Assembly: GCA_024642145.1 (NCBI GenBank)
Contig: JAHEBS010000002.1
Span: forward strand, 1 to 43,231
From: Marivivens sp.
Lineage (GTDB): Bacteria > Pseudomonadota > Alphaproteobacteria > Rhodobacterales > Rhodobacteraceae
DNA: 43,231 nucleotides
Reading direction: 5' to 3'
The position numbers and the translations under genes are program-made. Below the pieces are notes generated by a model, which worked only from the letters and a program-made list of their open reading frames with translations, was not told the DNA's origin and made no database searches. Below, in pieces: positions 11,596-35,017 of the stretch (within the stretch, counting starts at the first letter, position 1; every line of letters begins with the position of its first letter).

Positions 11596-12555
11596 ATGAT
11601 GACCCGCAGCGACCCCGCCCCCGCCACGCCGCGTTTCGAGCGTTGGCTGACCATCGGCCTTCTGGCCGCGATGGCGTTCGGCATTTGGGGTCTGGTGGCG
11701 CGCACGGGCTGGGCCGAGATGCTGGCCCCCCTGACGCGGCTGGGTGCGGGATCGGTTTTGGCGCTCTTGGCGCTGTCGCTTTGCAATTACCTTTTGCGCG
11801 GTCTGCGCTGGCATCTTTTCCAACGTGCGCTGGGCCTGCCGGTCAGTCTTGGCCAGTCCATGGGCCATTTCATTGCCGGTCTGGCGATGAGCGTGACCCC
11901 TGCACGGCTGGGCGAGTTGGTGCGTATGCGCTGGCTGCGCCGCGAGACGGGGTGGAGCGCGGAACGCACCGCGCCCCTGATGCTTTTGGACCGTGCCGCC
12001 GATCTGGCGGCGGTGGCGGCCATGGTGGGGCTGGGCCTTTGGGCCGCGGGCGGGCAGATCGCGCTGGCGGGTCCGGTCATCGCCCTTGCCTTTGTCGTGG
12101 CAGCCTTGGCCACAAGGCCGCAGCCGCTGATGTGGCTGGCGGCGCTGACCTTTCCCCGCTTTCCACGCGCCGCCGCCCGTATCCGCCGCGCGGGCCGGTC
12201 GCTGGCCGCGCTGTCGGGCGGCTTTGGGGTGGTCGCGGGGCTTGTTCTGGGCCTGATCGGCTGGGCGGCCGAGGGCTACGCCTTTGCGCTGACGCTCGCT
12301 TGGTTGGGGGCGCCGCTGCATCCGGGCATGGCCATGGCGATCTTTGGCTTTGCGACTATCGCTGGCGGTCTGACGGGCGCGCCTGGCGGTCTTGGCGGGG
12401 CCGAAGGGGCTATGGTGGCCCTGTTGCTGGCACAAGACGTGCCCTTGGTCGAAGCCGTCGCGGCAACCGCGGTGATCCGCCTGACAACGCTGTGGTTTGC
12501 GGTCGTTCTGGGCCTTGGGGCCTATCCTTTTGTCGAGCGGCGGTCCAAGGCATGA
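11596..12555 (+). CDS. YbhN/AglD-type (UPF0104, LPG-synthase TM region) integral membrane protein, candidate lipid-linked sugar flippase
   Basis: 319 aa, multiple TMs; LRGLRWHLFQRALG and MSVTPARLGELVRMRWL, GLTGAPGGLGGAEGAMVALL typical of the family; overlaps the DprE1-like ORF. Confidence 0.8.
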   Translation: MMTRSDPAPATPRFERWLTIGLLAAMAFGIWGLVARTGWAEMLAPLTRLGAGSVLALLALSLCNYLLRGLRWHLFQRALGLPVSLGQSMGHFIAGLAMSVTPARLGELVRMRWLRRETGWSAERTAPLMLLDRAADLAAVAAMVGLGLWAAGGQIALAGPVIALAFVVAALATRPQPLMWLAALTFPRFPRAAARIRRAGRSLAALSGGFGVVAGLVLGLIGWAAEGYAFALTLAWLGAPLHPGMAMAIFGFATIAGGLTGAPGGLGGAEGAMVALLLAQDVPLVEAVAATAVIRLTTLWFAVVLGLGAYPFVERRSKA

Positions 12556-13850
12556 CGGGCGGGGCCGAAATCCGCTATAGCGGCTGGGGTCGCGCGCTCA
12601 GTGCCAAGGCCACGCTTGCACGGCCGGAACGGCTGAGCGACATCGTGGCCCTAGGGCCTGCGGTCGGCGGGCGGCGGTCTTATGGTGATGCCGCGCTGAA
12701 CGATGGCGGGATGGCCGTCGATATGCGCAGGCTGGATCGCATCATCGCCTTTGATATTGAAAAGGGTGAAATCGAGTCCGAGGCCGGTATCACGCTGGGC
12801 GATCTGGCGCGTGTCACGATCGCGCGTGGCTGGCTGCCTGCGGTTTTGCCGGGCACGGGTCACGCGACGCTTGGCGGCGCAATCGCCATGGATGTGCATG
12901 GCAAAAACCACCATGGCGCGGGGTCTTTTGGCCAGCATGTGTTGGGTTTTGATCTGATCTCGCCCACAGGCGGCCAGCGGCGGGTCAAACCGGGTCAGCC
13001 GCTTTTCGCCGCGACCATGGGCGGGCTTGGCCAGACGGGCATTGTCACCTCGGCGCGGATCAAGCTGACCCATGCCCCGGGGGCGGTCGTGGCGCTGCGC
13101 GAGCGGCGCGTGGCGGATTGGGCGGCCCATGTCGCCGCCCTGACCGAGGCGGGCGACAGCTACGCCGTGGGCTGGATCGACGCCACAGCGCAGGGTCGTG
13201 ATCTGGGGCGTGGGATCGTCGAGACGGCAGAACTGTCGGCAGGCGAAGCGCGCAGGCGCGGCGGGCGGCCCAATCTGCCCTTTGACGCACCGCGGCTGGC
13301 CCTGTCTGCGCCGATCGTGCGCGCCTTCAATGCGGCCTATTTCCATCGCGTGCCCCTCGCTGGCCGCGACCGCATTGTGCCCTATGAGGCCTTCTTTTTC
13401 CCGCTCGATGCCATCGGCGCGTGGAACAGGCTTTATGGCCATGCGGGATTTCACCAGTTCCAATGCGTGGTGCCGCCAGCGGCGGCAGACGGCCTGCGTG
13501 ACATGCTGGCCGAGATTGCGGCGGGCGGCTTTGCCTCGCCTCTGGCGGTTCTCAAACGGATGGGGCCTGGTCGCGCAGGCATGATGTCCTTCCCGATGGA
13601 GGGGTTGACGCTGGCCGTCGATATGCCCAACCGCACCGGCGTTGTCGCGCTGATCGCGCGCCTGTCGCAGCAGGCGGCGGATCTGGGCGGGCGCGTTTAT
13701 CTGGCCAAGGATTCCGCGGCCGAACCGGCGGCGCTCGACACGATGTATCCCGAGGCGGCCAAATGGCGGCAGGCCGTGGCCAAGGCCGACCCCGCGGGGC
13801 GCATGGTCACCGATCTGGTGCGCCGCCTGAAATTGAGAGAGACAGCATGA
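12552..13850 (+). CDS. FAD-linked oxidase similar to DprE1 (decaprenylphosphoryl-beta-D-ribose 2-oxidase)
   Basis: ORF opens at 11643 but likely starts at ATG 12552 (MTGGAEIRYSGWG). GGRRSYGDAALNDGG; PGTGHATLGGAIAMDVHGKNHHGAGSFGQHV; VLKRMGPG...SFPMEGLTLAVDMP; GGRVYLAKD. Confidence 0.85.
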   Translation: MTGGAEIRYSGWGRALSAKATLARPERLSDIVALGPAVGGRRSYGDAALNDGGMAVDMRRLDRIIAFDIEKGEIESEAGITLGDLARVTIARGWLPAVLPGTGHATLGGAIAMDVHGKNHHGAGSFGQHVLGFDLISPTGGQRRVKPGQPLFAATMGGLGQTGIVTSARIKLTHAPGAVVALRERRVADWAAHVAALTEAGDSYAVGWIDATAQGRDLGRGIVETAELSAGEARRRGGRPNLPFDAPRLALSAPIVRAFNAAYFHRVPLAGRDRIVPYEAFFFPLDAIGAWNRLYGHAGFHQFQCVVPPAAADGLRDMLAEIAAGGFASPLAVLKRMGPGRAGMMSFPMEGLTLAVDMPNRTGVVALIARLSQQAADLGGRVYLAKDSAAEPAALDTMYPEAAKWRQAVAKADPAGRMVTDLVRRLKLRETA

Positions 13851-14584
13851 CCGAGACATGGATGATCCTTGGTGCCACCTCTGGCATGGCGCAGGCCCTG
13901 ACGCGCGATCTGGCGACACGGGGCGCGGGGTTGATCCTTGCGGGCCGCAAGACCGCCGATATGCAGGCCATCGCCGCCGATGCAACCGCGCGGGGCGCGC
14001 AGGCGGTGCAGGTCTTGACCTATGACGCGCGCGACAACGCCACCTGCGACGCGCTGGTCGCGGCGGCAGAGGCGGCAGCGGGGACGTTTAACCTTGCGGT
14101 CTTTGTGGGCTCGATGCCGCAGCAATCGGCCATCGACGCCGATCCCGACCTGATCGCCGGCACCATCACCGACAGCCTGTCCGGTCCGGCCCACCTGATC
14201 CACCGCCTTGCCCCCTTGATGGAGGCGCGCGGCACGGGCGTGATCGTGGGCGTGGGATCGGTTGCGGGCGACCGTGGGCGCCTGTCGAACTATGTCTACG
14301 GGGCCGCCAAGGCGGGATTTGCCGCCTATCTATCGGGCTTGCGTAACCGCATGGCGCGAAAGGGCGTCCATGTCATGACGGTCAAGCCGGGTCCGGTTGA
14401 CACGCCCATGACCTATGGCCTGCCCCCGATGCCGTTTCAGACCTCGCCCGAAAAAGTTTCGGCCGCGATCTTGCACGGCGTCGCGCGTCGGCGCGACGTG
14501 ATCTACGTGGCGCCAATCTGGCGGTTGATCATGATGGTAATCCGCGCCCTGCCCGAAGCCCTGTTCAAGCGCACCCGTTTCTGA
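13847..14584 (+). CDS. SDR oxidoreductase similar to DprE2 (decaprenylphosphoryl-2-keto-erythro-pentose reductase)
   Basis: Start ATG 13847 overlaps the upstream stop (ATGA). MILGATSGMAQALTRDLATRG; GSVAGDRGRLSNYVYGAAKAG; C-terminal WRLIMMVIRALPEALFKR. Confidence 0.85.
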   Translation: MTETWMILGATSGMAQALTRDLATRGAGLILAGRKTADMQAIAADATARGAQAVQVLTYDARDNATCDALVAAAEAAAGTFNLAVFVGSMPQQSAIDADPDLIAGTITDSLSGPAHLIHRLAPLMEARGTGVIVGVGSVAGDRGRLSNYVYGAAKAGFAAYLSGLRNRMARKGVHVMTVKPGPVDTPMTYGLPPMPFQTSPEKVSAAILHGVARRRDVIYVAPIWRLIMMVIRALPEALFKRTRF

Positions 14585-14588
14585 CGGC

Positions 14589-16022
14589 TCAGAACCCGAA
14601 CCATTGTTGCCAGAGGCCTGCGGCGTAGAACATCAGCGACAGCGTGATGAACAACAGCCCGATGCCGCGCTTGTCGGTCATGGCAAAGACGATCGGGTCG
14701 TAATCCTGCTTGCCCTGATAGCCAAGCCTGATCATCCGCAAAAGCCACGCGGCCATGGGCACCATCGCCACCCACAAAAGCCAGCGGTCGGGGTAGAGCG
14801 CCAGCGCCTGTGGCGTGGTGCTGTAAAGGGCAAAGATCACCAAGGCGCCTACCGCACCGACCGAGGCCACATTGACCAGATCCCCACGGTCGCGGCGTCC
14901 GTAACCCCGACCCGGCAGGGGCGCGTCATCTTCGGCCAAGGCCAGTTCGGTCATACGTTTGACCGCGCCCAGCGCCGCAAAGACGGGAAAGATGAAGATC
15001 AGCATATAGATCGTGGCATCGACCCCACCTGCTGCCGCACCGGCAACGACGCGCAGGGTATAAAGGGCGGCAAGGGTGGCAATATCGACCCAGCGCAGCC
15101 GCTTGAGCCGCAGCGAATAGGCAAGGCTCAGCCCCATATAGGCAGCCAGAACCGCCGCAAATGCCCAGCCCAACCCCGCGCCGATCGTAAAAGCGGCAAG
15201 GGTCAGGACCAGAACCGCAGGCAAGCCCAGCCAGAGCGGCACAAGACCCGAGGCAAAGGGACGCTGGTGTTTGGTCTTGTGCTGGCGGTCAGCCTCGAGG
15301 TCCAGAAGATCGTTGACCAGATAGATGGCCGAGGCGGCGGCGGAAAATGCCACGGCCCCCAGCAGCACCTGCAAGAAAACCTCGAGCGTAAAGGCATGGG
15401 CCGCAATCATCGGCAGGAACAGCAGCGCGTTCTTGACCCATTGATGCGGGCGCAGCGCCTTCCATAGCCGCGCGGACCGGTGCGGATCGGCAATTTCGGT
15501 CACACCGGTCCGCGCCGCCTTGAGCCGCGTCGGGGCGTCACCCACCTGCCCGACCAAGATCACATGCGCCGCACGGTTCATCACTGCCAGATCGCCGCGC
15601 GATCCGGTCGCATAGTAAAAGCCACGCTCGCCAAAGGCCTCGACCAGCGCCGTGGCCTTGTCGGCACCCACCAAGATGCGCTCGCCGTCCGAAGCCAGAG
15701 AGCCATCCAGCCCATGCGCCTCGGCCACGGGCTGCACCAGCCGCGAATCCGCGCCCGAGGCCAAGAATACCTCTTGGCCCTCGGCCCGCGCTGCTGCGGC
15801 CATCGCGGCGACATCGGGATTTACCGGCAACAGATCGGAGCGCAACGTGACGGCCTGTGCCAGCCGTGCCCGCAGGCGGCGGCGCGCAAAGACCGATCGC
15901 GCGACGATGCCCAATGTCCGCAAGGGCGCCTGACCCATGCCCGCCCAAAAGCTTTCCCAACCCAGATCGGTCAGAAGGAAGGCGCCCTCGGCCTCGATCA
16001 CAAGCGGTTTGCGGTCAGCCAC
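14589..16022 (-). CDS. HAD-like domain fused to UbiA-family prenyltransferase (similar to decaprenyl-phosphate phosphoribosyltransferase)
   Basis: 477 aa, GTG start. C-terminal half LRPHQWVKNALLFLPMIAAH, YLVNDLLDLEADRQHKTKHQRPFASG is typical of the DPPR-synthase-like UbiA group; N-terminal ~180 aa resembles a HAD fold. Confidence 0.85.
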   Translation of the reverse strand: MADRKPLVIEAEGAFLLTDLGWESFWAGMGQAPLRTLGIVARSVFARRRLRARLAQAVTLRSDLLPVNPDVAAMAAAARAEGQEVFLASGADSRLVQPVAEAHGLDGSLASDGERILVGADKATALVEAFGERGFYYATGSRGDLAVMNRAAHVILVGQVGDAPTRLKAARTGVTEIADPHRSARLWKALRPHQWVKNALLFLPMIAAHAFTLEVFLQVLLGAVAFSAAASAIYLVNDLLDLEADRQHKTKHQRPFASGLVPLWLGLPAVLVLTLAAFTIGAGLGWAFAAVLAAYMGLSLAYSLRLKRLRWVDIATLAALYTLRVVAGAAAGGVDATIYMLIFIFPVFAALGAVKRMTELALAEDDAPLPGRGYGRRDRGDLVNVASVGAVGALVIFALYSTTPQALALYPDRWLLWVAMVPMAAWLLRMIRLGYQGKQDYDPIVFAMTDKRGIGLLFITLSLMFYAAGLWQQWFGF

Positions 16023-16025
16023 GGG

Positions 16026-16901
16026 TTATCCTCCGGCCAGATTGAACACACAGCCATCCGTCATCAGTTCGGGCGGCGTCATACAAAGCGATCGCGCGAC
16101 GTTCCACGCGGCGAGAACCTTGGGCACATAGGCGCGGGTTTCGGCATAGGGCGGCACGCCCGCATTGTCACGCACCGCGCCTTCGCCCGCATTATATCCC
16201 GCCAGCACCAATATGGGATCGCGGGCAAATCGGTTCATCAACCAGTCAAGATAGGCCACCCCGCCCGCGATATTGTCGTTGGCCACCAGCGAGTCGCTGA
16301 CCCCGAACCGCGCGGCGGTGGCGGGCATGAGCTGCATCAACCCTTGCGCGCCCGCGTGGCTGACCGCATCGGCGCGCCCGCCGCTTTCGACTGCAATCAT
16401 GGCCAGAACCAGCGCTGGCGAGACATTGGTGCCCACCGTGGCGCTGAGAATCTCGCGCCCATAGGTCGAGGCGATCTGTTGCAGGGTCTGCAGGCGCGGT
16501 GGATCAGGGGCTTCGCCAGCGGGGGCCTGCTGCAACTCGGCCAGCGCCTGTGTAAGCCGGCCCGGGCCGCTGTCGGCCAGACGCGGCGACACCGCCATCC
16601 AGAACCATTCGGTGCCGGTTACCACGGTCGACGCCGGATCCGCATGATTTTCGGCGGGTGTATAGGGTGTGGGCACAGCGGGGTTGGGGCGCGGCGCGAT
16701 TTGCACGGTAATCAGGTTCCCGACAGATCCGGCCTCGGGCACGCCGATACGCTTGAAGGTAAAATCAGGCTGCATGCGTGCGGGCTCTGCGCCCGCGCCC
16801 ATGGCGATGGCGGCCAATCCCGTAGCGGCAATGATGCGCACGATTCTCTGCATCGAGGTTACTGCTCTGCCTCGCCTTTCCACCTTTATCGCAAAATTCA
16901 C
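16026..16901 (-). CDS. Lytic transglycosylase domain protein (SLT family), secreted
   Basis: AMIAVESGGRADAVSHAGAQGLMQLMPATAARFGV, LDWLMNRFARDPILVLAGYNAGEGAV. Alternative start at 16853 (MQRIVRIIAATGLAAIAMGAGAEPA signal peptide). Confidence 0.92.
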   Translation of the reverse strand: MNFAIKVERRGRAVTSMQRIVRIIAATGLAAIAMGAGAEPARMQPDFTFKRIGVPEAGSVGNLITVQIAPRPNPAVPTPYTPAENHADPASTVVTGTEWFWMAVSPRLADSGPGRLTQALAELQQAPAGEAPDPPRLQTLQQIASTYGREILSATVGTNVSPALVLAMIAVESGGRADAVSHAGAQGLMQLMPATAARFGVSDSLVANDNIAGGVAYLDWLMNRFARDPILVLAGYNAGEGAVRDNAGVPPYAETRAYVPKVLAAWNVARSLCMTPPELMTDGCVFNLAGG

Positions 16902-17194
16902 GACTCAGGGCCAGTCTCGGCGAAAATCATCGCTGATTCTGGGGTTTTGACGCCGAAACCGGAGCCAATAAACACCCTATGCGAGAATTTTTGAAAGTTT
17001 CTTTCATTTATTATCAATGATTTAGGCAGGTATGACGTGGTTTTTTGCGCTGCACCAAATTTGAACCGTTCTGGCCAAAGTCTCGCCCCAATCTCAGAGC
17101 TTTATAGCACCATCCAAGCTGACAAGCTGACCCGGGAATAGGGGATGAGCCAGCAAGGAAGTGCAACTGACCTAAACCCCCAGGAGGGACTGAC

Positions 17195-17368
17195 ATGCTG
17201 AACTTCATCAAAAACTTCCGTCGTGACGAAGACGGCGCCGTGACCGTTGACTGGGTCGTTCTGACCGCTGCGATCGTGGGCCTCGGCGTTGCGGTTCTCG
17301 CCTCGGTTTCGGGCGGCGTGAACAACCTGTCGGGCGATATCGCCACGAGCCTCTCGGGCCAGATGTAA
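17195..17368 (+). CDS. Flp/type IVb-like pilin, copy 1
   Basis: 57 aa, absent from the ORF track: MLNFIKNFRRDEDGAVTVDWVVLTAAIVGLGVAVLASVSGGVNNLSGDIATSLSGQM; short charged leader, Gly14, hydrophobic helix; AGGAGG-like RBS (caggagggac) upstream. Confidence 0.88.
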   Translation: MLNFIKNFRRDEDGAVTVDWVVLTAAIVGLGVAVLASVSGGVNNLSGDIATSLSGQM

Positions 17369-17416
17369 TCTGACCGATCAAACCAACCTAATCTATCAAA
17401 CCAAAGGATCAATCAA

Positions 17417-17590
17417 ATGCTGAACTTCATCAAAAACTTCCGTCGTGACGAAGATGGTGCCGTGACCGTTGACTGGGTCGTTCTGACCGCTGCCATCGTT
17501 GGCCTCGGCGTTGCGGTTCTCGCCTCGGTTTCGGGCGGCGTGAACAACCTTTCGGGCGACATCGCCACGAGCCTCTCGGGCCAGATGTAA
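17417..17590 (+). CDS. Flp/type IVb-like pilin, copy 2 (protein identical to copy 1)
   Basis: 57 aa, same translation as 17195..17368; six synonymous nucleotide differences. Confidence 0.88.
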   Translation: MLNFIKNFRRDEDGAVTVDWVVLTAAIVGLGVAVLASVSGGVNNLSGDIATSLSGQM

Positions 17591-17610
17591 TCTGATCTGA
17601 GCGACTACTG

Positions 17611-17650
17611 GGGCCGTCCCGCAAGGGGCGGCCCTAAACTTTTGTAATTT
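17611..17650 (+). terminator. Hairpin terminator downstream of pilin copy 2
   Basis: GGGCCGTCCC (17611-17620) GCAA GGGGCGGCCC (17625-17634): 10-bp stem with one wobble, GNRA tetraloop, then TAAACTTTTGTAATTTT. Confidence 0.65.
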
Positions 17651-17775
17651 TATCCGTAGTTTGTTTCCAACAGTCGAAGATGCCGCCCGGATTCAACCCT
17701 TGCTGCACCTTTTTCTTGCCACATTGGCTTTGGATTATGGGACCTGGTTCTGGCCCGCGCCGTGAAGGAGAAATC

Positions 17776-17958
17776 ATGCGCCGCCTTTTGAAAAAATTCC
17801 GCGCCGACGAAGCTGGCGCTGTGACCGTTGACTGGGTTGTACTGACGGCTGCCCTCGTTGGCCTCGGCGTTGCCGTGGCATCAACGATCGGCGCCGGCGC
17901 TATGAACAAGTCTTCCGGCCTCGGCGCGACCCTTTCCAACATGGATGGCGGCAGCTGA
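17776..17958 (+). CDS. Third Flp-like pilin (divergent)
   Basis: Within ORF 17680..17958; likely start ATG 17776 after GAAGGAG: MRRLLKKFRADEAGAVTVDWVVLTAALVGLGVAVASTIGAGAMNKSSGLGATLSNMDGGS (60 aa). Confidence 0.85.
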   Translation: MRRLLKKFRADEAGAVTVDWVVLTAALVGLGVAVASTIGAGAMNKSSGLGATLSNMDGGS

Positions 17959-17967
17959 CGCTGGCTG

Positions 17968-17981
17968 TTCCCGCAAGGGAA
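17968..17981 (+). terminator. Short GCAA-tetraloop hairpin between pilin 3 and cpaB (attenuator-like)
   Basis: TTCCC GCAA GGGAA; no clear U-tract. Confidence 0.35.
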
Positions 17982-18079
17982 TGGAAAGTCCGCTTGGCGT
18001 TTTGGCGCCGACGTGGCAAGAATTGCACACAAACAATGAGCGTGGCCGCCAAGAGCCGCGACAATGAGGGTTTCGAGAT

Positions 18080-18934
18080 ATGCGTGCGGTCTTTGGGATA
18101 GTGTTAGTTATCGGCCTCGGGCTTGCCGGCTTTGCCGTGTATATGGTCCAGGGCTATTTCCAGCAGCAGCAAGTGGCCTTGGCCCGCGAACGCGCGGTCT
18201 TGGCCCAGCAGGTCCCCACGGTCGAGGTCATCGCCGTCAACCGCGCGATTGGCTATGGCGAACAGATCACCAAAGACGACGTCAAGGCGATCCGCTACGC
18301 GGAACCCTTCCTGCCTGAGGGCGTGTTCCGCACCATGGAAGACCTCTTTAGCGAGGGCGATGACACCTACCGCGTCGTTCTGCGCCCGATGGAAAACAAC
18401 GAACCCATTCTGGCAATCAAAGTGACCGAGCCCGGTGCTGACGCTGGTCTGACCACCCGTCTGGCGCCTGGTATGCGCGCCTTTGCGATCCGCGTGGACG
18501 TGGCCAGCGGCGTTTCCGGCTTCTTGCGCCCCGGCGACCGTGTCGATGTGTATTGGACCGGCTCGCTCAATGGTTCCTCGCGAGAGGTCACCAAGCTGAT
18601 CGAAACCGGTATCAAACTGGTTGCGGTTGACCAGACCGACGAAATGAATCTGGCCTCGGCGGCCATCGCGCGCACCGTAACGGTCGAGGTTTCGCCCCAG
18701 CAGGTCGCCAATCTCGCTCAGGCGCAATCGACGGGCTCGCTTTCGCTGGCCCTTGTCGGCGCCACGGATGAGACCACACCCACCGCGATCGAGGTCGATC
18801 TGAACACGCTTCTGGGCATCACCCCCGAGGCCGCGCCGACCCCCGAAGCCGTGGCCCCCGCCGAGCGTGTTTGCACGATCAAGACCCGCCGCGGCGCCGA
18901 TGTCGTGGAGATCCCGATCCCCTGCTCGAACTGA
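18080..18934 (+). CDS. cpaB: Flp pilus assembly protein CpaB/RcpC
   Basis: 284 aa; N-terminal TM, SAF-like VIAVNRAIGYGEQITKDDVKAIRY, FLRPGDRVDVYWTG. Confidence 0.92.
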   Translation: MRAVFGIVLVIGLGLAGFAVYMVQGYFQQQQVALARERAVLAQQVPTVEVIAVNRAIGYGEQITKDDVKAIRYAEPFLPEGVFRTMEDLFSEGDDTYRVVLRPMENNEPILAIKVTEPGADAGLTTRLAPGMRAFAIRVDVASGVSGFLRPGDRVDVYWTGSLNGSSREVTKLIETGIKLVAVDQTDEMNLASAAIARTVTVEVSPQQVANLAQAQSTGSLSLALVGATDETTPTAIEVDLNTLLGITPEAAPTPEAVAPAERVCTIKTRRGADVVEIPIPCSN

Positions 18935-19091
18935 CGACGGGGGACCGGATCATGGCGATGTTGCAACCAACCCACATGCGATTCGCCTCGGAACACTTTG
19001 ATTCTTGCAAAAAATGCGCATTGCGGGCAGTGTGGCGGAAACGACGGGTAAACAAGGCCCGCGGGCAGGCGTGATCGGAGAGGCAGGTCAC

Positions 19092-20519
19092 ATGAGCAGA
19101 ATGCGATTTCTTAGGACCGTGGCCGTCGGGGTATTCCTCGGCGCTGCACTGGTTGGTAGCGGCAGCTTTGCCCAGACCCTTCATGTCATGGAGGGGGCAA
19201 CATCAAGCACGTTGAACGTGCCGATGAACCGCGCCGTCGTGGTCGAAAGCGACACACCCTTTACCGAACTCTCGATTGCCAACCCGGGCATCGCGGATAT
19301 CTCGTCCCTTTCAGACCGCACCATCTATGTGCTGGGCAAGGAACCGGGGCGCACGACGCTGACGCTTTTGGGCGCCGACGGACGGTTGATCACCAATGTC
19401 GAGGTGCAGGTCACCCCTGACATCGCCGAGTTCAAAGAACGCCTGCAGGAAATCCTGCCGGGCGAAAACATCGAGGTCCGCACCGCCAACGACGGTATCG
19501 TTCTTTCGGGGTCTGTCAGTTCGATCGCCAAGCTTGATCGCGCGCTTGAACTGGCCCAGCGTTATGCGCCGGACCGGATTTCCAACCTGATGACCGTTTC
19601 GGGCACCCAGCAGGTGATGCTCAAGGTCCGTTTCGCCGAGATGCAGCGTTCGGTTTCCAAATCGCTTAGCTCGTCGCTGGCCATTCAGGGCAGCACGCTG
19701 GGGGGCAACCTCGGGCTATCGGGTGGCACCAACAGCACGAATACCGCCAACACAATCGCCAGCGCGCTGACCGGCAACCTGCCGGGCACGGGCGCCAATA
19801 ATGGTGCAATGCTGTTCGGTTTCGGCGCGGGCGGTCTGGAAATGACCGTTTTGCTTGAGGCGCTTGAGGCGCGCGGCGTTGTCCGCACGCTGGCCGAACC
19901 CAACCTGACCGCACTGAGCGGCCAAGAGGCCCGTTTCCTCGCAGGTGGCGAGTACCCGGTGCCCGTGAGCCAGGATTCCGGCTCGGTCACGATCCAGTAC
20001 AAGCCCTTCGGCGTCGAATTGAACTTTATTCCCCGCGTCGTGGATGGCGATCTGATCAACATCGAACTCGATGCGGCGGTCAGCTCGATCGACCCGTCGA
20101 ACGGATTTAGCCAGAACGGCTTTACGGTCGATGCCTTCAAGCGCCGCGAAACCTCGACCACGGTCGAAATGCGCGACGGCGAAAGCTTTGCCATCGCGGG
20201 CCTGCTGTCGGACGACTTTACCGACCTCAACGGTCAGGTGCCGTGGCTTGGTGACATTCCGATCCTCGGCGCGCTGTTCCGGTCGGCGGAATATCAGCGC
20301 AAGCAGACAGAACTGGTGATCATCATCACCCCGCATCTGGTCACGCCGATGCGCGGCGATGCGCTGGCCCTGCCCACCGACCGCGTGCGTCCGCCAACCG
20401 AAAGCGACCTGTTCCTGTTTGGCCGCGTGTCGGGCGCCAACGCCAACACGCCCACGGGCGAGGTCGCGCGTCAGGACTTTAGCGGCTCCTACGGTTATGT
20501 GATGGGAGACGATCAATGA
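19092..20519 (+). CDS. cpaC: Outer-membrane secretin CpaC/RcpA
   Basis: Likely start ATG 19092 (signal peptide MSRMRFLRTVAVGVFLGAALVGSGSFAQ); BON-like region, secretin motifs LAEPNLTALSGQEARFLAGGEYPVPV, VPWLGDIPILGALFRS, ELVIIITPHLV. Confidence 0.95.
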   Translation: MSRMRFLRTVAVGVFLGAALVGSGSFAQTLHVMEGATSSTLNVPMNRAVVVESDTPFTELSIANPGIADISSLSDRTIYVLGKEPGRTTLTLLGADGRLITNVEVQVTPDIAEFKERLQEILPGENIEVRTANDGIVLSGSVSSIAKLDRALELAQRYAPDRISNLMTVSGTQQVMLKVRFAEMQRSVSKSLSSSLAIQGSTLGGNLGLSGGTNSTNTANTIASALTGNLPGTGANNGAMLFGFGAGGLEMTVLLEALEARGVVRTLAEPNLTALSGQEARFLAGGEYPVPVSQDSGSVTIQYKPFGVELNFIPRVVDGDLINIELDAAVSSIDPSNGFSQNGFTVDAFKRRETSTTVEMRDGESFAIAGLLSDDFTDLNGQVPWLGDIPILGALFRSAEYQRKQTELVIIITPHLVTPMRGDALALPTDRVRPPTESDLFLFGRVSGANANTPTGEVARQDFSGSYGYVMGDDQ

Positions 20520-21202
20520 AAAAGCTCGTCGCCACCACGGCAATCCTTGCGGCCCTGACCGCTTGCAGCAGCGATGATCCGGTTTTCGGCTCGTTCTACC
20601 GCGAGGCCGGTTCCTCAATCGACAACGGCACCTTCGGCCAAGCGACGATCAACAATATCGGCGTGCAGTCGGGCGAGATCGAATACACCTTGGCGCTGGC
20701 CCATCGTTTTGCCGACGAAGTGCCCACCGTCATCAATTTCGAGTTCAACAGCGCCACTATCGACGCGGCCGCGCAAACGGTCCTGCTGCAGCAAGCCGAT
20801 TGGATCAAGCAATTCCCCGAGGTCCGGTTCAAGGTCTATGGCCACACCGATCTGGTGGGTTCGAACGCCTATAACCAGTCGCTTGGCCTGCGTCGCGCCA
20901 ATGCGGTGGTGCAGTTCTTTGTGGCTCAAGGCATCAGCCGCGATCGTCTAGAAGCTGTCGTATCCTTTGGCGAGACCCAGCCCTTGATCGTGACCGAGGG
21001 CCGCGAGCGCGCGAACCGCCGCACCGTGACCGAAGTGACGGGCTTTGTCGAAACCGACGCGGGCATCATGAACGGCAAATATGCCGAGGTGGTGTTCCGT
21101 GAATATATCAACAGCGGCATTCCCAAAACCGGCCTCTCGCCGCTTCTGGGTGCCGGCGGTGGCGGTGGCGGCAGCAGCAGCGCACCGTCTACGGGCGGCT
21201 GA
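20516..21202 (+). CDS. OmpA-family lipoprotein in the position usually held by cpaD
   Basis: 228 aa; lipobox LTAC; OmpA domain INFEFNSATID...YGHTDLVGSNAYNQSLGLRRANAV; Gly/Ser-rich C-terminus; 4-nt overlap with cpaC. Confidence 0.9.
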   Translation: MKKLVATTAILAALTACSSDDPVFGSFYREAGSSIDNGTFGQATINNIGVQSGEIEYTLALAHRFADEVPTVINFEFNSATIDAAAQTVLLQQADWIKQFPEVRFKVYGHTDLVGSNAYNQSLGLRRANAVVQFFVAQGISRDRLEAVVSFGETQPLIVTEGRERANRRTVTEVTGFVETDAGIMNGKYAEVVFREYINSGIPKTGLSPLLGAGGGGGGSSSAPSTGG

Positions 21203-21209
21203 GCCAGCC

Positions 21210-21240
21210 GACGCGACCGGATTGTTTCGCCGGTCGCGTC
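21210..21240 (+). promoter_or_regulatory. Perfect 11-bp inverted repeat in the ompA-cpaE gap
   Basis: GACGCGACCGG (21210-21220) ATTGTTTCG CCGGTCGCGTC (21230-21240). Confidence 0.6.
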
Positions 21241-21284
21241 AACAAACACCCCATCGTCGATCAATCGTCTTTCGATTTCGCACA

Positions 21285-21306
21285 ATTGGGGTTTTTTAGC
21301 CCCAAT
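21285..21306 (+). promoter_or_regulatory. Second inverted repeat in the same gap, with a T-rich loop
   Basis: ATTGGGG (21285-21291) TTTTTTAG CCCCAAT (21300-21306). Confidence 0.5.
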
Positions 21307-21441
21307 CTCGTCAAACTTGCCCCCCACATTCAAACGGTAAACGAAGCTCCCGGGCATCACGTCCGCGGGTTTTCGGGACCGAAGATGCAAAGCGATTTGC
21401 ATCCAACCGTCTGATTTGAATTGTTTTTTGGGGAAACGGGC

Positions 21442-22689
21442 ATGGCAACGAACGCCGCTATCAAGACAGATCCGCAGGCCATTGTGGCCTGCACGGTGAG
21501 TCGGGACGTCCAGAATTTCGATCTTCTGATCGAAGACATGGAAGGCCTGATGGGCGAAAAATGGGGTGACCTCGGGTTTGAGGACGCTCTGGCATTTCTG
21601 GGACAACCCGAGGCCCATTACCTCGAGTTTATCGCCATTGCCCTTGACCAAGAGGACGAGGACGACCTTTCGCTTGTCCTGCAGGTGATTACCGCCGCCA
21701 AGCTGCGCGACATCAAGGCAATCATCATCGCCGAAGATGTCTCGCCCGCTGCATTGCACCGCCTGCTGCGCGAGGGCGGCGACGAATTCATCCCCTATCC
21801 CCTGCCCGAGCACGAATTGGCCAAGGCAATCGAACGCCTGCGCCATGTGCCCGAAGAACCGCCGGTCCAGCCGCAGCACACCAACAAGCTCAAGGCCACG
21901 GGTGACCGCAACGGCGTTGTGATCCCCGTGCAGGGTCTGGCGGGTGGCACAGGCGCCTCGACTTTTGCGGTCAACCTTGCCTGGGAATTGGCGAATATCG
22001 AAAAGGAAGACGGGCCGCGCGTTTGCATCCTTGATCTGGACCTGCAGTCGGGTTCGGTTTCGACCTACCTCGATCTGCCCCGCCGCGAAGCGGTGATGGA
22101 GATGCTTGCCGACACCGAATCCATGGACAACGAAAGCTTCATGCATTCGCTCTTGTCCTATAACAACAAGTTGCACGTGCTGACCGCGCCCACAGATCTG
22201 GTGCCGCTGGAAGTCGTGACCCCCGCCGATGTGCAGCGCCTGATTTCGACGGCGCAGGCCAATTTTGACTATGTTATCATCGACATGCCCAAGGTGATGG
22301 TCGAATGGACCGAAACCGTGCTGAACGCCGCGCATATCTATTTCGCGATGCTCGAGCTGGACATGCGTTCGGCGCAGAATGCGCTGCGGCTCAAGCGTGC
22401 GCTGCAGGGCGAGGAACTGCCCTTCGAAAAGCTGCGCTTCATCCTCAACCGCGCGCCCAAGTTCACTGACCTGAGCGGCAAGGCCCGCGTCAAACGTCTG
22501 GGTGAAAGCCTGAGCATCTCGATCGAGGTGCAATTCCCCGACGGCGGCCCGCAGGTCACCCAGACCAATGACCATGGCATTCCGATGCTGGAAAACATGG
22601 CCAAGAACCCGCTGCGCAAGGCGATCGCCGCGCTTGCCAAATCCGTTCACGAGGTCAACGCGTCTGAAATCGCCAAAGCGGGGCACTGA
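21442..22689 (+). CDS. cpaE: CpaE/TadZ-like pilus assembly ATPase
   Basis: Receiver-like N-terminus and MinD-like domain VIPVQGLAGGTGASTFAVNLAWELA...VCILDLDLQSG; start ATG 21442. Confidence 0.9.
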   Translation: MATNAAIKTDPQAIVACTVSRDVQNFDLLIEDMEGLMGEKWGDLGFEDALAFLGQPEAHYLEFIAIALDQEDEDDLSLVLQVITAAKLRDIKAIIIAEDVSPAALHRLLREGGDEFIPYPLPEHELAKAIERLRHVPEEPPVQPQHTNKLKATGDRNGVVIPVQGLAGGTGASTFAVNLAWELANIEKEDGPRVCILDLDLQSGSVSTYLDLPRREAVMEMLADTESMDNESFMHSLLSYNNKLHVLTAPTDLVPLEVVTPADVQRLISTAQANFDYVIIDMPKVMVEWTETVLNAAHIYFAMLELDMRSAQNALRLKRALQGEELPFEKLRFILNRAPKFTDLSGKARVKRLGESLSISIEVQFPDGGPQVTQTNDHGIPMLENMAKNPLRKAIAALAKSVHEVNASEIAKAGH

Positions 22690-22693
22690 ATAA

Positions 22694-24154
22694 ATGTCGA
22701 TGTTCGCCAAATACAAAAAGCCGGGCGCAGCACCTGTCGGCGCGGGAAAACCCGCCTTGGCTCCGGCTGCGCGCGGCACCACCACAACCGCCGTCGCCCC
22801 AGAGGTCGAGCGCAAATCGCTGATGCGCGCCATGCCGGCAAAGCCGGCAGAGCCGTCGGCAGCGGACAAGGAGCGCAAGCGCAAGGAACGGCTTGGCGAG
22901 ATCAAACTGGAACTGCACAAGGCGCTGTTGGACAACCTGAACCTTGCGGCGCTGGAAAAGGCGTCCGAGCAGGAATTGCGTCAGGAAATCAACGCCATCT
23001 CTGGTGAAACGCTGGAATTGATGGGCGTGGTCCTGAACCGCGAGGAACGCCAGACCCTGACCCAGGACCTCTATGACGAGGTGACGGGCCTTGGCCCGCT
23101 GGAAACCCTGCTCAAAGACGACTCGGTCAACGATATTCTCGTCAACGGCCCGCGCCAGATCTTTGTCGAACGCGCGGGCAAGCTGCAGCTGACGGATGTG
23201 ACCTTCAAAGACGAACGCCACCTCTTGCGGATCATCGACAAGATCGTGTCCGCCGTGGGTCGTCGCGTCGATGAATCGAACCCCTATGTCGACGCCCGCC
23301 TTGCCGACGGTTCGCGTTTCAACGCCATGGTGCCCCCCGTTGCGGTCGATGGCTCCTTGGTCTCGATCCGTAAGTTCAAAAAGGACAAGCTCGCCATCGA
23401 AGATCTGGTGCGCTTTGGTGCCTTTACCGAGGAAATGGCCGCCTATTTGCAGGCAGCCGTTGCCACGCGTCTTAACGTGATCGTGTCGGGCGGTACGGGT
23501 TCGGGTAAAACAACGACGCTCAACGCGCTGTCGTCCTTTATCGACAACAGCGAACGCATCCTGACCATCGAGGACACGGCGGAACTTCAACTGCAGCAGA
23601 CCCACGTCGGCCGCATGGAAAGCCGCCCCGCCAACGTCGAAGGCCGTGGCGCGGTGACCCAGCGCGACTGTCTGCGCAACGCGCTGCGTATGCGTCCTGA
23701 CCGGATTATCGTCGGTGAAACGCGCGGCGAGGAAGTGATCGACATGTTGCAGGCCATGAACACGGGCCACGACGGGTCGATGACCACAATCCACGCCAAC
23801 TCGGCCCGCGACGGTGTGAGCCGTCTGGAAAACATGGTGGCCATGGCCGGCATCGAAATGCCGATCAAGGCTGTCCGCAGCCAGATCGCCAGCGCTGTGA
23901 ACCTGATCGTGCAGGCAAGCCGCCTGCAGGACGGCTCGCGCCGCATGACCTCGATCACCGAGATCACCGGCATGGAAGGCGACGTTATCTCGATGCAAGA
24001 GGTCTTCCGCTATCAGCGTGTCGGCCTTTCACCCGACAACAAGATCATCGGCCATTTCACCGCCACGGGCGTACGTTCGCACTTTTCCGAACGGTTCCGC
24101 CTGTGGGGCTATGATCTGCCGCCCGCGATCTTTGAACCCTATAACGGGAACTGA
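22694..24154 (+). CDS. cpaF: CpaF/TadA secretion ATPase
   Basis: 486 aa; Walker [59 protein letters not shown]. Confidence 0.97.
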
Positions 24155-24157
24155 GTT

Positions 24158-25126
24158 ATGGTCATCTCTGCCGAACCAATCATCTATGGCATTGTCTTTA
24201 TTGCCGTTCTCGTGCTGGTCGAAGGCATCTACCTGACGGTTTTCGGCAAATCGATCAGCCTCAACCGCAAGGTAAACCGTCGTCTCGAGCTTTTGGAAAA
24301 AGGTCAGGGCCGCGAGCAGGTGCTGGAACAACTCCGCAAGGAGATGACCCAGCACATGAAGTCCTCGTCGATCCCGATCTACGCGATCCTCGCGGCCAAG
24401 GCGCAAAAGGCCAATATCGCGTTTTCGCCCAACAAGCTGATCATGATGATGGGCGTCATGGCGGTCATCGCCTTTATCGGCCTGACCGTGGGCACCGAAA
24501 CCAGCCCGATGATCCGCTTTGCGGTGTCGATCGGAATGGGCGTGGGCGGCATCTATGTCTGGGTGAACAACAAGGCCAAAAAGCGTATCGGCCTGATCGA
24601 AGAACAGTTGCCGGACGCCGTGGAACTGATGGTGCGCAGCCTGCGGGTGGGTCACCCGTTCTCGTCCGCCATCGCGATCGTCGCCAAAGAAGTCGCAGAC
24701 CCGCTGGGTTCGGAAATGGGCGTGATCTCGGACGAAAGCGCCTATGGCCGCGACCTGAGCGAAAGCCTCAAGGATCTGTCCGAACGCATGGATATGCAGG
24801 ATTTGCGCTTCCTTGCCGTGGCCGTAACCATCCAGCAGCAATCGGGTGGTAACCTTGCCGAGATCCTTGACGGTCTGGCCAAGGTTATCCGCGCCCGTTT
24901 CCGCCTGTTCCGCAGGGTCAAGGCCATCACGGCCGAGGCCAAGTGGTCTGGCATGTTCCTGTCGGGCTTTCCGCTGCTGGCGCTTGTCGCCATCAACGTG
25001 ATCCAGCCCAACTATTACGATGAAGTCAAAGAGACCTCGGTGTTTATCCCGGCCTGTCTCGTCGTCGCGGGCTTTCTCATCACGAATATCTTCGTGATGC
25101 GCTCGCTGACCAATATCAAAGTGTGA
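24158..25126 (+). CDS. tadB: TadB inner-membrane protein (GspF family)
   Basis: 322 aa; EEQLPDAVELMVRSLRVGHPFSSAIAIVAKEVADPLGSEM typical T2SSF domain. Confidence 0.94.
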   Translation: MVISAEPIIYGIVFIAVLVLVEGIYLTVFGKSISLNRKVNRRLELLEKGQGREQVLEQLRKEMTQHMKSSSIPIYAILAAKAQKANIAFSPNKLIMMMGVMAVIAFIGLTVGTETSPMIRFAVSIGMGVGGIYVWVNNKAKKRIGLIEEQLPDAVELMVRSLRVGHPFSSAIAIVAKEVADPLGSEMGVISDESAYGRDLSESLKDLSERMDMQDLRFLAVAVTIQQQSGGNLAEILDGLAKVIRARFRLFRRVKAITAEAKWSGMFLSGFPLLALVAINVIQPNYYDEVKETSVFIPACLVVAGFLITNIFVMRSLTNIKV

Positions 25127-25133
25127 GGCACAA

Positions 25134-26123
25134 ATGGGCATTCTGTCGAACATCAACGCATTCCTGATCGACAAGATCGGCCCCTTTGGCCCTCTGGTGG
25201 TCGTGGGTCTTCTGGGTGTGGCGCTCATTCTGATCACCCTGCCCGTCATGTTGACGAAAAAGGCCGACCCGCTGGACAAGCTCAAGGCCCAGAGCCAGCC
25301 CAAGTCCGCTCTGCAAGGCAAGGGCAAGCCCGACGCCCTGCGGACCGCAAATTCCAAGGACAAGCTCGAGAAATATTCGCATTTCCTCGAACCCCAGAAC
25401 GTCGAGGAATATTCGGCCATCAAGCTCAAGCTGCTGCAGGCGGGCTATCGTTCCAAGAACGCGGTGCGGATCTATCACTTCTTGCAGTTCACGCTTGGCG
25501 TTGCCCTGCTGGTTGTGGGTATCGCCTACGCGATCTTGAAATCGCACAACGGCGATCCCTCGACCCAAAACACGATCCTGTCGATCATTCTGCCCGGAGC
25601 GGTAGGCTATATGGGCCCCAAATACTGGGTCAACAAACGCCAGCAAGAGCGTCAAAAGGAAATCATCAACGGCTTTCCCGACGCGCTTGACATGCTTTTG
25701 GTCTGTGTCGAGGCCGGTCAGTCGCTGGACCAGTCGATCATCCGTGTGAGCCGCGAATTGCGCGCGGGCTTTCCTGCCCTCGCTTGGGAATTCGAGGTCG
25801 TCGCCCACGAAATGAAAGCGGGTAAGGACAAGGCCTCGGTGCTGCGCGATCTGGGTGAACGCTGTGGTGTGGCGGACGTGTCGTCCTTTGTGACCGTGCT
25901 GATCCAGAGCCAGCAGTTCGGCACCTCGATCGCCGAGGCGCTGCGCGTCTACGCCGGTGAAATGCGCGATAAACGCGTGATGCGTGCCGAGGAAAAGGCA
26001 AATACCTTGCCCACCAAGATGACGCTTGCCACCATGATGTTGACGGTGCCGCCGCTTCTGATCATCCTGATCGGGCCGTCGATCTACAGCATCTACACCA
26101 CGCTCGGTGGCGGAGGCGGCTAA
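25134..26123 (+). CDS. tadC: TadC inner-membrane protein (GspF family)
   Basis: 329 aa; GFPDALDMLLVCVEAGQSLDQSIIRVSRELRAGFPALAWEF, RAEEKANTLPTKMTLATMM. Confidence 0.94.
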   Translation: MGILSNINAFLIDKIGPFGPLVVVGLLGVALILITLPVMLTKKADPLDKLKAQSQPKSALQGKGKPDALRTANSKDKLEKYSHFLEPQNVEEYSAIKLKLLQAGYRSKNAVRIYHFLQFTLGVALLVVGIAYAILKSHNGDPSTQNTILSIILPGAVGYMGPKYWVNKRQQERQKEIINGFPDALDMLLVCVEAGQSLDQSIIRVSRELRAGFPALAWEFEVVAHEMKAGKDKASVLRDLGERCGVADVSSFVTVLIQSQQFGTSIAEALRVYAGEMRDKRVMRAEEKANTLPTKMTLATMMLTVPPLLIILIGPSIYSIYTTLGGGGG

Positions 26124-26144
26124 CAACAGGAGCAGGCGGAACAA

Positions 26145-26702
26145 ATGCTGGCAAGATTTCTATGTGTCGGCCTTGTTCTCTTGCCCTTGGGCGCCTGCAC
26201 CGAAGGTGGTCTGAACAAGGGCGATGGCGTCTACGCCCCCGGCCCCGCCGGTGAAGCCGACATTGACGGGCTGTTGATTGGCCACCGGCTCATGGCTGCG
26301 GGCGAGTATGAACTGGCGCTGACCGCCTATCTGCGCGCGGCGGGCCAGCAAGGGCTGAACGCGGACACGCTATCGGCCATCGGCTCGGCCAATCTGATGC
26401 TGGGCCGTCTGGGACAGGCCGAGGCCGAATTGCGCCGCGCCACCGACATCGACCCGACCTTTGCGGCTGCATGGAACAATCTGGGCGTTGTCTTGATGAA
26501 CGAAGGCAAAATCCCCGAAGCCGCCGAAGTATTCCGGCTGGCCTACGGGCTGGACGATGGCAATTCCGATAGTATCCGTGACAACCTGCGCTTGGCTCTC
26601 GCAAAACTCGCCGATCCCGCGTATGTTGGCGACAACGAGAACGAACAGTTCCAATTGGTGCGGCGCGGGCCGGGCGATTACCTGCTCTTAACCGCGCTCT
26701 GA
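26145..26702 (+). CDS. TPR lipoprotein, TadD-like (first)
   Basis: 185 aa; lipobox LGAC; TPR repeats AEAELRRATDIDPTFAAAWNNLGVVLMNEGKIPEAAEVFRLAYGLD. Confidence 0.88.
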   Translation: MLARFLCVGLVLLPLGACTEGGLNKGDGVYAPGPAGEADIDGLLIGHRLMAAGEYELALTAYLRAAGQQGLNADTLSAIGSANLMLGRLGQAEAELRRATDIDPTFAAAWNNLGVVLMNEGKIPEAAEVFRLAYGLDDGNSDSIRDNLRLALAKLADPAYVGDNENEQFQLVRRGPGDYLLLTAL

Positions 26703-26729
26703 GGCAAAGCAGGACGGGACCATAGGCCC

Positions 26730-27587
26730 ATGCGGCAGGCAATTCATTTGACAGTGGCGATGGCGGCTTTGATGTCGCTTGGCGCTTGTATGAACAATGG
26801 CGACGCAGCGGTTCGCGACGCGATGAAAGAGGTCAATGTGGTCGATGCCACGGACCTCAACGATGTGATGCTGACGGTGGCGGACCCCAATGAGGCCGTG
26901 GCCTATTTCACCCGCGCCACGACCCAAGACCCCGGCCGGATCGATCTGATGCGTGGTCTGGCCAAGTCCTTGGTGCGCGCCAATCGCGCAACCGAGGCCG
27001 TGACCGCATGGAAGGGTGTCATCGCCCACCCCGAGTCGACAAGCGACGACCATATCGATTTCGCCGACGCCCTGATCCGCGCGAATATGTGGGACGAGGC
27101 CGAGGTCGAACTGGATGCGATCCCGCCCACGGTCGAAACCTTTGACCGCTATCGGCTGGAGGCCATGGTGGCCGACGCCAACAAGGAATGGTCGCGCGCT
27201 GACAGTTTCTATGAAACCGCCGTTGGCCTGACCGTGCGCCCCGCGCCGGTCCTGAACAACTGGGGCTTTTCCAAGCTGACCCGCGGCGATTACGCAGGCG
27301 CCGAGCGGCTGTTCTATGACGCGATCCGGCATGATCCGCAGATGTTCACCGCCAAGAACAACCTGATGTTGGCCCGTGGCGCACAACGAAAATACGATAT
27401 GCCCGTGATCCCGATGACGCAGGTCGAGCGGGCCGAGCTGCTCTATACGCTGGCGCTCACGGCCATCAAGCAAAACGACATCGCCATCGGCAAGACACTG
27501 CTGCAAGAGGCCATCGACAGCCATCCGCAGTATTTCGAAGAGGCCGTTCGTTCGCTGGCGGCCCTTGAACAGAATGTGTCCCATTGA
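26730..27587 (+). CDS. TPR lipoprotein, TadD-like (second)
   Basis: 285 aa; lipobox LGAC; VNNWGFSKLTRGDYAGAERLFYDAIRHDPQMFTAKNNL-type repeats (LNNWGFSKLTRGDYAGAE). Confidence 0.85.
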   Translation: MRQAIHLTVAMAALMSLGACMNNGDAAVRDAMKEVNVVDATDLNDVMLTVADPNEAVAYFTRATTQDPGRIDLMRGLAKSLVRANRATEAVTAWKGVIAHPESTSDDHIDFADALIRANMWDEAEVELDAIPPTVETFDRYRLEAMVADANKEWSRADSFYETAVGLTVRPAPVLNNWGFSKLTRGDYAGAERLFYDAIRHDPQMFTAKNNLMLARGAQRKYDMPVIPMTQVERAELLYTLALTAIKQNDIAIGKTLLQEAIDSHPQYFEEAVRSLAALEQNVSH

Positions 27588-28084
27588 TGCTGCAGATCAC
27601 CGCCTACGAAGCCATCTGGTTCCTGCCCTTCTTGTTGCCGGTCATCATCTACGTGGCATGGTCCGACATGCGGGCCATGAAGATCCCGAATCTGGCGGTC
27701 GGCACCATGGTGGTGATCTTTGCCGTGATCGGGCTGATCGCCCTCTCGCCCGTCGATTACGGCTGGCGCTGGCTGCATCTGGTGGTCGTGCTGGGCATCG
27801 GCATCGTGATGAACGCCATGGGGCTGGTCGGCGCGGGCGACGCTAAATTCGCCGCTGCCGCCGCGCCATTCGTCGCCTTGGGCGATGTGATTACGCTGTG
27901 CTACATTCTGGCGGGCTGCATTCTGGCCGCCTATGTCTCGCACCGGATCGTCAAGAATACCGCGCTGCGCAAACTCGCCCCCGACTGGCAGAGCTGGCAG
28001 ACGGGTAGACGGTTCCCGATGGGCTTTCCTTTGGCGGGCACCTTGGGCGTCTATCTGGCGATCGGCGCCTATTTCGGCGCCTGA
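27584..28084 (+). CDS. cpaA: Prepilin peptidase, CpaA/TadV type
   Basis: 166 aa; YVAWSDMRAMKIPNLAV and GAGDAKFAAA (two catalytic Asp motifs); 4-nt overlap with upstream TPR gene. Confidence 0.93.
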   Translation: MMLQITAYEAIWFLPFLLPVIIYVAWSDMRAMKIPNLAVGTMVVIFAVIGLIALSPVDYGWRWLHLVVVLGIGIVMNAMGLVGAGDAKFAAAAAPFVALGDVITLCYILAGCILAAYVSHRIVKNTALRKLAPDWQSWQTGRRFPMGFPLAGTLGVYLAIGAYFGA

Positions 28085-34366: not shown

Positions 34367-35017
34367 ATGCTGGGCCATTCCTTTACCTTTTGCGATCAGC
34401 AGCTGGTTGCGATGCCTTCGGGCGCGCTCTGGCTGCCTGCTGGGCGCGTGTTGACGGTTTCGGACCTGCATCTGGGCAAACCCGATCGCATATTGCGTGC
34501 GGGCGGCGCGTTGATCCCGCCCTATGACATCGCGGAAACGCTGGGGCGGCTGAGCCTTGATATTGCAACCACCAATCCTCTGGTGGTCATTTGTCTGGGG
34601 GACAGTTTCGACGACCTGACCGCCGCCGGTTCGCTGAGCGAGAATGAACGCCTGAGCCTTTTGGGGCTGCAGGCTGGGCGCCGCTGGGTCTGGATCGAGG
34701 GTAACCATGACCCCGGCCCTGTCGATCTGGGGGGCAGTCATCTGTCGGAATATCGCGCGGCAGGTCTGGTCTGGCGACATATTGCGACAAGCCCTGAAAA
34801 GGGCGAGATTTCAGGGCATTACCACCCGAAATATGCGCTCGCCGGTCAATCACGGCCCGCGTTTCTCTATGACAACCAGCGCGTTATTCTGCCCGCCTAT
34901 GGTGCCTATACGGGCGGCATGCATGCAGGCCGCGCACCATTGGCCCAACTGATGGGACCCGAGGCGCGGGTGGTTCTGACGGGTCCCAAAGCCTTGGTGG
35001 TGCCGCTCAGGCGGTAA
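34367..35017 (+). CDS. pdeM: Ligase-associated metallophosphoesterase/endonuclease PdeM
   Basis: 216 aa; [50 protein letters not shown]. Confidence 0.92.

Follow-up and report, generated by a model that had tools for sequence, protein, structure and literature searches.

Gene content of the locus

The window, a 43,231-nucleotide stretch of Marivivens sp. DNA, encodes on its minus strand a fusion of an N-terminal HAD domain to a UbiA transferase (Table 1), in an uninterrupted reading frame with no internal stops. The protein is assigned to the PRK08238 family on the basis of NCBIfam PRK08238/NF006088, which matches almost its whole length (446.8 bits, cut-off 351); PRK12324 models also match, below their cut-off. 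In Pfam, the UbiA domain scores 69 bits and the HAD domain (PF12710) 22.5 bits, the latter below its gathering score of 27. The N-D-x-x-D-x-x-x-D motif and the loop IV R..E pair (R356/E359) that mark a UbiA phosphoribosyltransferase are present, and all of these residues are invariant. Foldseek gave the DPPR synthase 8j8j as the best match to the UbiA part, at 28% identity, and matched the N-terminus to SerB-type HAD phosphatases, with hits to SerB and 3fvv. In the AF2 model of the protein (pLDDT 91.4), the N-terminus appears as a Rossmann-like core with a helical cap, which indicates compatibility with the HAD fold rather than proof of it, because the underlying alignment consists mostly of intact relatives. 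A PDB sequence search with the window HAD domain found no real relative.

Table 1. Coordinates of the HAD-UbiA gene, its domains and motifs, and the adjoining genes of the window.
Feature	Position	Strand	Details
LPG_synthase_TM/flippase-like membrane protein, candidate lipid-sugar flippase	11596..12555	+	PF03706 138.7 bits; TIGR00374
DprE1-like FAD oxidase, start codon approximate	12513..13850	+	PF01565; NF053785 360 bits, below cut-off 500
DprE2-like SDR reductase	13847..14584	+	NF053786 157 bits (cut-off 250); NF005489 260.5 bits (cut-off 267); both below
HAD-UbiA fusion, polyprenyl-phosphate 5-phosphoribosyltransferase, PRK08238 family	14589..16022	-	477 aa, GTG start at 16022
UbiA transferase domain, intact	14592..15455	-	Pfam, conserved columns, Foldseek 8j8j TMt 0.85
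UbiA metal/substrate motif NDLLDLEAD (N237, D238, D241, D245), kept	15288..15314	-	equivalent to ORF15 N247/D248/D251/D255
N-terminal HAD (phosphoribose phosphatase, PRP) domain, residues 1-189	15456..16022	-	predicted non-catalytic
Motif IV region YATGSRGDLAVM, residues 137-148; G139>T and W148>M, Asp144 kept	15579..15614	-	alignment
Motif III Lys122, kept	15657..15659	-	alignment
Motif II Ser89, kept	15756..15758	-	alignment
Motif I EAEGA, residues 10-14, replacing DVDGT/DADGT	15981..15995	-	alignment

The genes run topA, scoA, scoB, flippase-like, dprE1 and dprE2, followed by ubiA and a lytic transglycosylase on the opposite strand and then by a Tad pilus cluster, an order common to many loci, intact and degenerate alike. 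With dprE1 and dprE2 adjoining ubiA, the locus has the arrangement of a DPA (lipid-arabinose) locus, an assignment that rests on gene order and homology because the NF053785 and NF053786 matches fall below cut-off.

The Tad pilus cluster also has ubiA, usually accompanied by dprE1/dprE2, beside it in most relatives, as it does in the window (11596-28084), and this neighbourhood suggests that arabinosylation is tied to the Tad pilus. Arabinosylation of type IV pili has been proposed for Pseudomonas aeruginosa (as cited in PMC11127046). Directly after the Tad prepilin peptidase lies a gene for a 533-aa multi-span membrane protein without a Pfam match (28088-29689, minus strand), which looks GT-C glycosyltransferase-like by eye and could be the pentosyltransferase for which the lipid sugar serves as substrate, the pilus being one possible target. 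Identical 57-aa products are encoded by two neighbouring Flp-type pilin genes (17195-17368 and 17417-17590, plus strand), and a third pilin-like ORF at 17680-17958 differs from both.

Catalytic motifs of the HAD half

The initial annotation placed EAEGA at HAD motif I, with both Asp replaced by Glu and Thr by Ala, and this is borne out by alignment. The protein begins V/M-ADRKPLVIEAEGAFLLTDLGWESFW, with motif I as E10-A-E12-G-A14, and homologues carry LVLDVDGTFLRTD, with DxDGT, at the aligned place, which identifies the site as the true motif I position. That annotation had allowed that the true motif might lie elsewhere; we looked for one and found no other DxDGT-like motif in the window HAD domain. 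Across 95 intact Rhodobacteraceae homologues, the alignment has Asp at both positions in 100% and Thr in 99%. The minus-strand codons are GAG GCC GAG GGC GCC, the three altered ones each lying one base away from codons for the usual D, D and T. The window protein lacks the nucleophilic Asp of the DxDGT/V motif that defines a catalytic HAD enzyme, and it has the motif II Ser/Thr and motif III Lys.

Damage extends to motif IV, which was missed by the initial annotation. Here YATGSRGDLAVM stands against the consensus YAG[N/D]xxxDxxVW, and of the family form G(D/N)xxxD the window keeps the Asp, with Thr in place of the Gly and Gly at position 140. Changes at columns at least 97% conserved comprise L21>G, K51>R, N116>I, G139>T and W148>M. 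Four of the 15 absolutely conserved columns of the HAD half are broken and none of the 50 of the UbiA half, the intact homologues breaking 0-1 HAD invariant columns when each is left out in turn; the invariance of the two Asp columns is in part a consequence of selecting the intact set on the presence of motif I. Free of that selection are the motif IV, N116, L21 and K51 changes and an overall rate test, in which the identity of the window HAD half to its relatives falls short of the level expected from UbiA identity (mean z -2.34, against a minimum of -1.87 among the 95 intact proteins). Judged from these comparisons, the window HAD half is evolving faster than expected from its UbiA half. 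Phosphatase activity of the domain appears very unlikely, because the domain has lost its nucleophile and its general acid as well as portions of motifs I and IV.

Motif I loss across the Rhodobacteraceae

We sampled 397 Rhodobacteraceae genomes, each representing a different genus, together with genome contigs, and accepted as orthologues full-length proteins with a UbiA part at least 58% identical, for which 66 genera qualify. Motif I is lost in 10 of these 66. The initial annotation had left it to an alignment to say whether EAEGA is clade-wide or strain-specific; EAEGA itself was private to the window genome among those sampled, its genus being represented by that one genome, and motif I loss as such recurs in the family. 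The other degenerate genera are G171 (ALPA, in a sequence identical to Profundibacterium L044), G349 (EAPA), G231, G074, G052, G378, G070, G293 (DADAA) and G178 (DAERD), the last two retaining the first Asp and losing the remainder of the motif. In several of them the HAD domain is cut to approximately 100-135 residues, some 50-90 residues shorter, and which parts are missing varies from lineage to lineage. Some of the domain persists in all ten affected proteins, as does the transferase half. A further loss is found outside the Rhodobacteraceae, in a Rhodospirillaceae HAD-UbiA homologue (L060) with VDLENALV at motif I.

A single origin of the loss was not rejected with UbiA sequences alone (p-AU 0.139) and is contradicted by the concatenated neighbouring syntenic genes (2221 columns), with which grouping all ten degenerate genera is rejected at p-AU 5e-6. 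Grouping the window with only the largest degenerate clade, a test picked after the tree was seen, is rejected at p-AU 1.4e-5. Instead, the window groups as sister to the DVDGT-bearing G322 with support of 100/100. The neighbour-gene tree needs five changes, at least four of them forced by supported branches, and is also compatible with the gene block having moved as a unit from one lineage to another. As read from these trees, the distribution implies that the phosphatase motif was lost repeatedly, at least four independent times, in the Rhodobacteraceae.

In the closest degenerate group (G052/G378/G070; L109/L151/L156), dN/dS of the HAD remnants is 0.16-0.34, compared with 0.13-0.17 for UbiA of the same genera and 0.03-0.30 for intact HAD domains, and the remnants are therefore under relaxed selection yet not drifting freely. 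Distant degenerate pairs give 0.57-0.64, and the window against G322 gives 0.36 for HAD and 0.30 for UbiA; these wider comparisons are weak because synonymous sites are near saturation. The degenerate HAD domain may thus keep some non-catalytic role, for which a structural one is plausible.

Removal of the 5'-phosphate and comparison with known systems

The order dprE1-dprE2-ubiA is retained in eight of the ten degenerate loci, and a DprE1 relative was found in 40 of 40 genomes tested, so the other steps of lipid-arabinose synthesis are generally kept despite the phosphatase loss. In G171 (L195, G171:C11), the degenerate gene has no dprE1/dprE2 beside it, and the sole DprE1-like protein is a distant one (best match 42%) on another contig.

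Candidates for a replacement phosphatase were sought in the affected genomes. A second PRP-type HAD is absent from eight of the ten, the window genome included, and G070 and G378 each have a second HAD-UbiA. PAP2 phosphatases of the Rv3807c type were rejected as the replacement, as they are not enriched in affected genomes and have no match in five of the ten; the one PAP2 of the window genome lies within a 699-aa protein whose N-terminus is DedA-like by eye. No neighbourhood gene tracked HAD loss convincingly. A metallophosphatase at 34367-35017 resembles a DNA-repair-associated phosphoesterase beside a helicase and was set aside as unlinked.

Our preferred reading, to which we give a probability of roughly 0.7, is that the protein is a UbiA polyprenyl-phosphate phosphoribosyltransferase whose fused HAD domain has turned into a pseudophosphatase, with the 5'-phosphate removed in trans and the domain dispensable and repeatedly lost. 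The window protein would make the 5-phosphate lipid; its HAD half, the 5'-phosphate remover in relatives, would be unable to form the aspartyl-phosphate intermediate for want of the necessary residues; and an unrelated phosphatase would remove the 5'-phosphate before DprE1/DprE2 turn ribose into arabinose. The recurrence of the loss would be explained if background phosphatase activity pre-exists, making the fused domain dispensable. The window would represent an early stage, full-length yet catalytically dead, and the shortened domains of other genera later ones. Both suggestions of the initial annotation find support here: a non-catalytic HAD domain agrees with the missing catalytic residues and damaged motifs described above and with the D18A variant of ORF15 described below, and dephosphorylation from elsewhere fits the kept UbiA active site and dprE1/dprE2, the genome's lack of a second PRP-type HAD and the HAD-less NoeC. 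We hold more tentatively, at somewhat less than even odds, that the HAD domain is repeatedly and independently becoming a smaller, selected non-catalytic module while a widespread phosphatase takes over 5'-dephosphorylation in lipid-arabinose synthesis.

Compatible with the loss of catalysis, and adding a positive function to it, is the proposal that the domain has been repurposed under selection, either as a scaffold (for oligomerisation, membrane placement or DprE1 recruitment) or as a PRPP/phosphate sensor. The constrained remnants of the closest degenerate group, the absence of any complete deletion and the full-length, confidently modelled window fold speak for it, but the remnants shrink by losing different parts in each lineage, unlike one preserved binding site, distant degenerate pairs give higher dN/dS and the model draws mostly on intact relatives; on balance we consider it less likely than not. 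An altered pathway, in which DprE1/DprE2 take the 5'-phosphorylated lipid as substrate or the final donor is a 5-phosphopentofuranosyl lipid, would account for the lack of a dedicated phosphatase gene near the locus and of a second PRP copy. We know of no precedent for either, and the dprE1/dprE2 orthologues and gene order match those of intact relatives with no sign of alteration in the partner genes, which makes this improbable. It is very improbable that the HAD domain remains a phosphatase with Glu10 acting as the nucleophile and Glu12 as the acid/base: the swaps at both Asp are conservative and Ser89, Lys122 and Asp144 are kept, but Glu occurs there in 0 of 95 intact relatives, Thr14, G139 and W148 are altered as well, these positions hold Ala or Arg or are deleted in other degenerate lineages, and in HAD enzymes replacing the nucleophilic Asp with Glu normally leaves little or no turnover. 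Sequencing or assembly error is hardly credible, for although the draft is the single genome of its genus, in 235 contigs, and differs from the usual motif by three single bases, it also departs at residues 21, 51, 116, 139 and 148 with almost no departures in UbiA, and nine other genera show similar loss.

The identity of the 5'-phosphatase in lipid-arabinofuranose synthesis is not well established, even in mycobacteria, where the pathway is a drug target (at the DprE1 step). Ten genera that lack the fused phosphatase and keep the rest of the pathway constitute a natural experiment, and the replacement enzyme may be among the features common to them. They also provide a clean case of a bifunctional enzyme in which one activity is repeatedly lost while the other half is conserved. 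The window protein represents an unusual form of a fusion enzyme already known, and the repeated independent loss adds to its interest; a narrow literature search turned up no account of a pseudophosphatase HAD domain in the HAD-UbiA family.

Like ORF15 of Citrobacter youngae O1, a PRP-PPPRS fusion that makes lipid-Ribf with motif I Asp18 as nucleophile (PMC11127046), the window protein combines an N-terminal HAD phosphoribose phosphatase domain with a UbiA phosphoribosyltransferase and shares its conserved UbiA motifs. Membranes with ORF15 D18A form mainly prenyl-P-ribose-5-phosphate and a little dephosphorylated product, while Ribf on LPS persists in vivo (PMC11127046). Unlike ORF15, the window protein has Glu in place of the catalytic Asp18 and its gene adjoins dprE1/dprE2, pointing to lipid-Araf as the probable end product. 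The DPPR synthase Rv3806c of Mycobacterium tuberculosis (8j8j) has the same UbiA fold and, by homology, probably the same reaction, but is without a HAD domain; the separate PAP2 protein Rv3807c is the proposed mycobacterial phosphatase (PMC3229680; PMC11127046). The rhizobial NoeC, from the noeCNHOP operon on an Agrobacterium pusense IRBG74 plasmid, likewise has DprE1-/DprE2-like neighbours, but its N-terminus of approximately 100 aa lacks a HAD match and its operon serves the arabinosylation of Nod factors (PMC5080398). The five noeCNHOP genes encode a UbiA protein, a GtrA protein, an FAD oxidase, an SDR and an unannotated protein, with no recognisable phosphatase. By gene order, noeN of IRBG74 (L194:5855-6277) appears to encode a GtrA-family membrane protein, more likely a flippase component; noeN was therefore rejected as the DPPR phosphatase proposed in PMC5080398, and its deletion was not used as phosphatase evidence. 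That this operon arabinosylates without a fused HAD or recognisable phosphatase fits supply of the phosphatase in trans. Also close are the orthologous intact HAD-UbiA proteins of the Rhodobacteraceae (among them G322/L177 and Marivivens L004), in which motif I is an intact DVDGT/DADGT, and G322 has the gene order of the window, topA-scoAB-flippase-dprE1-dprE2-ubiA-slt.
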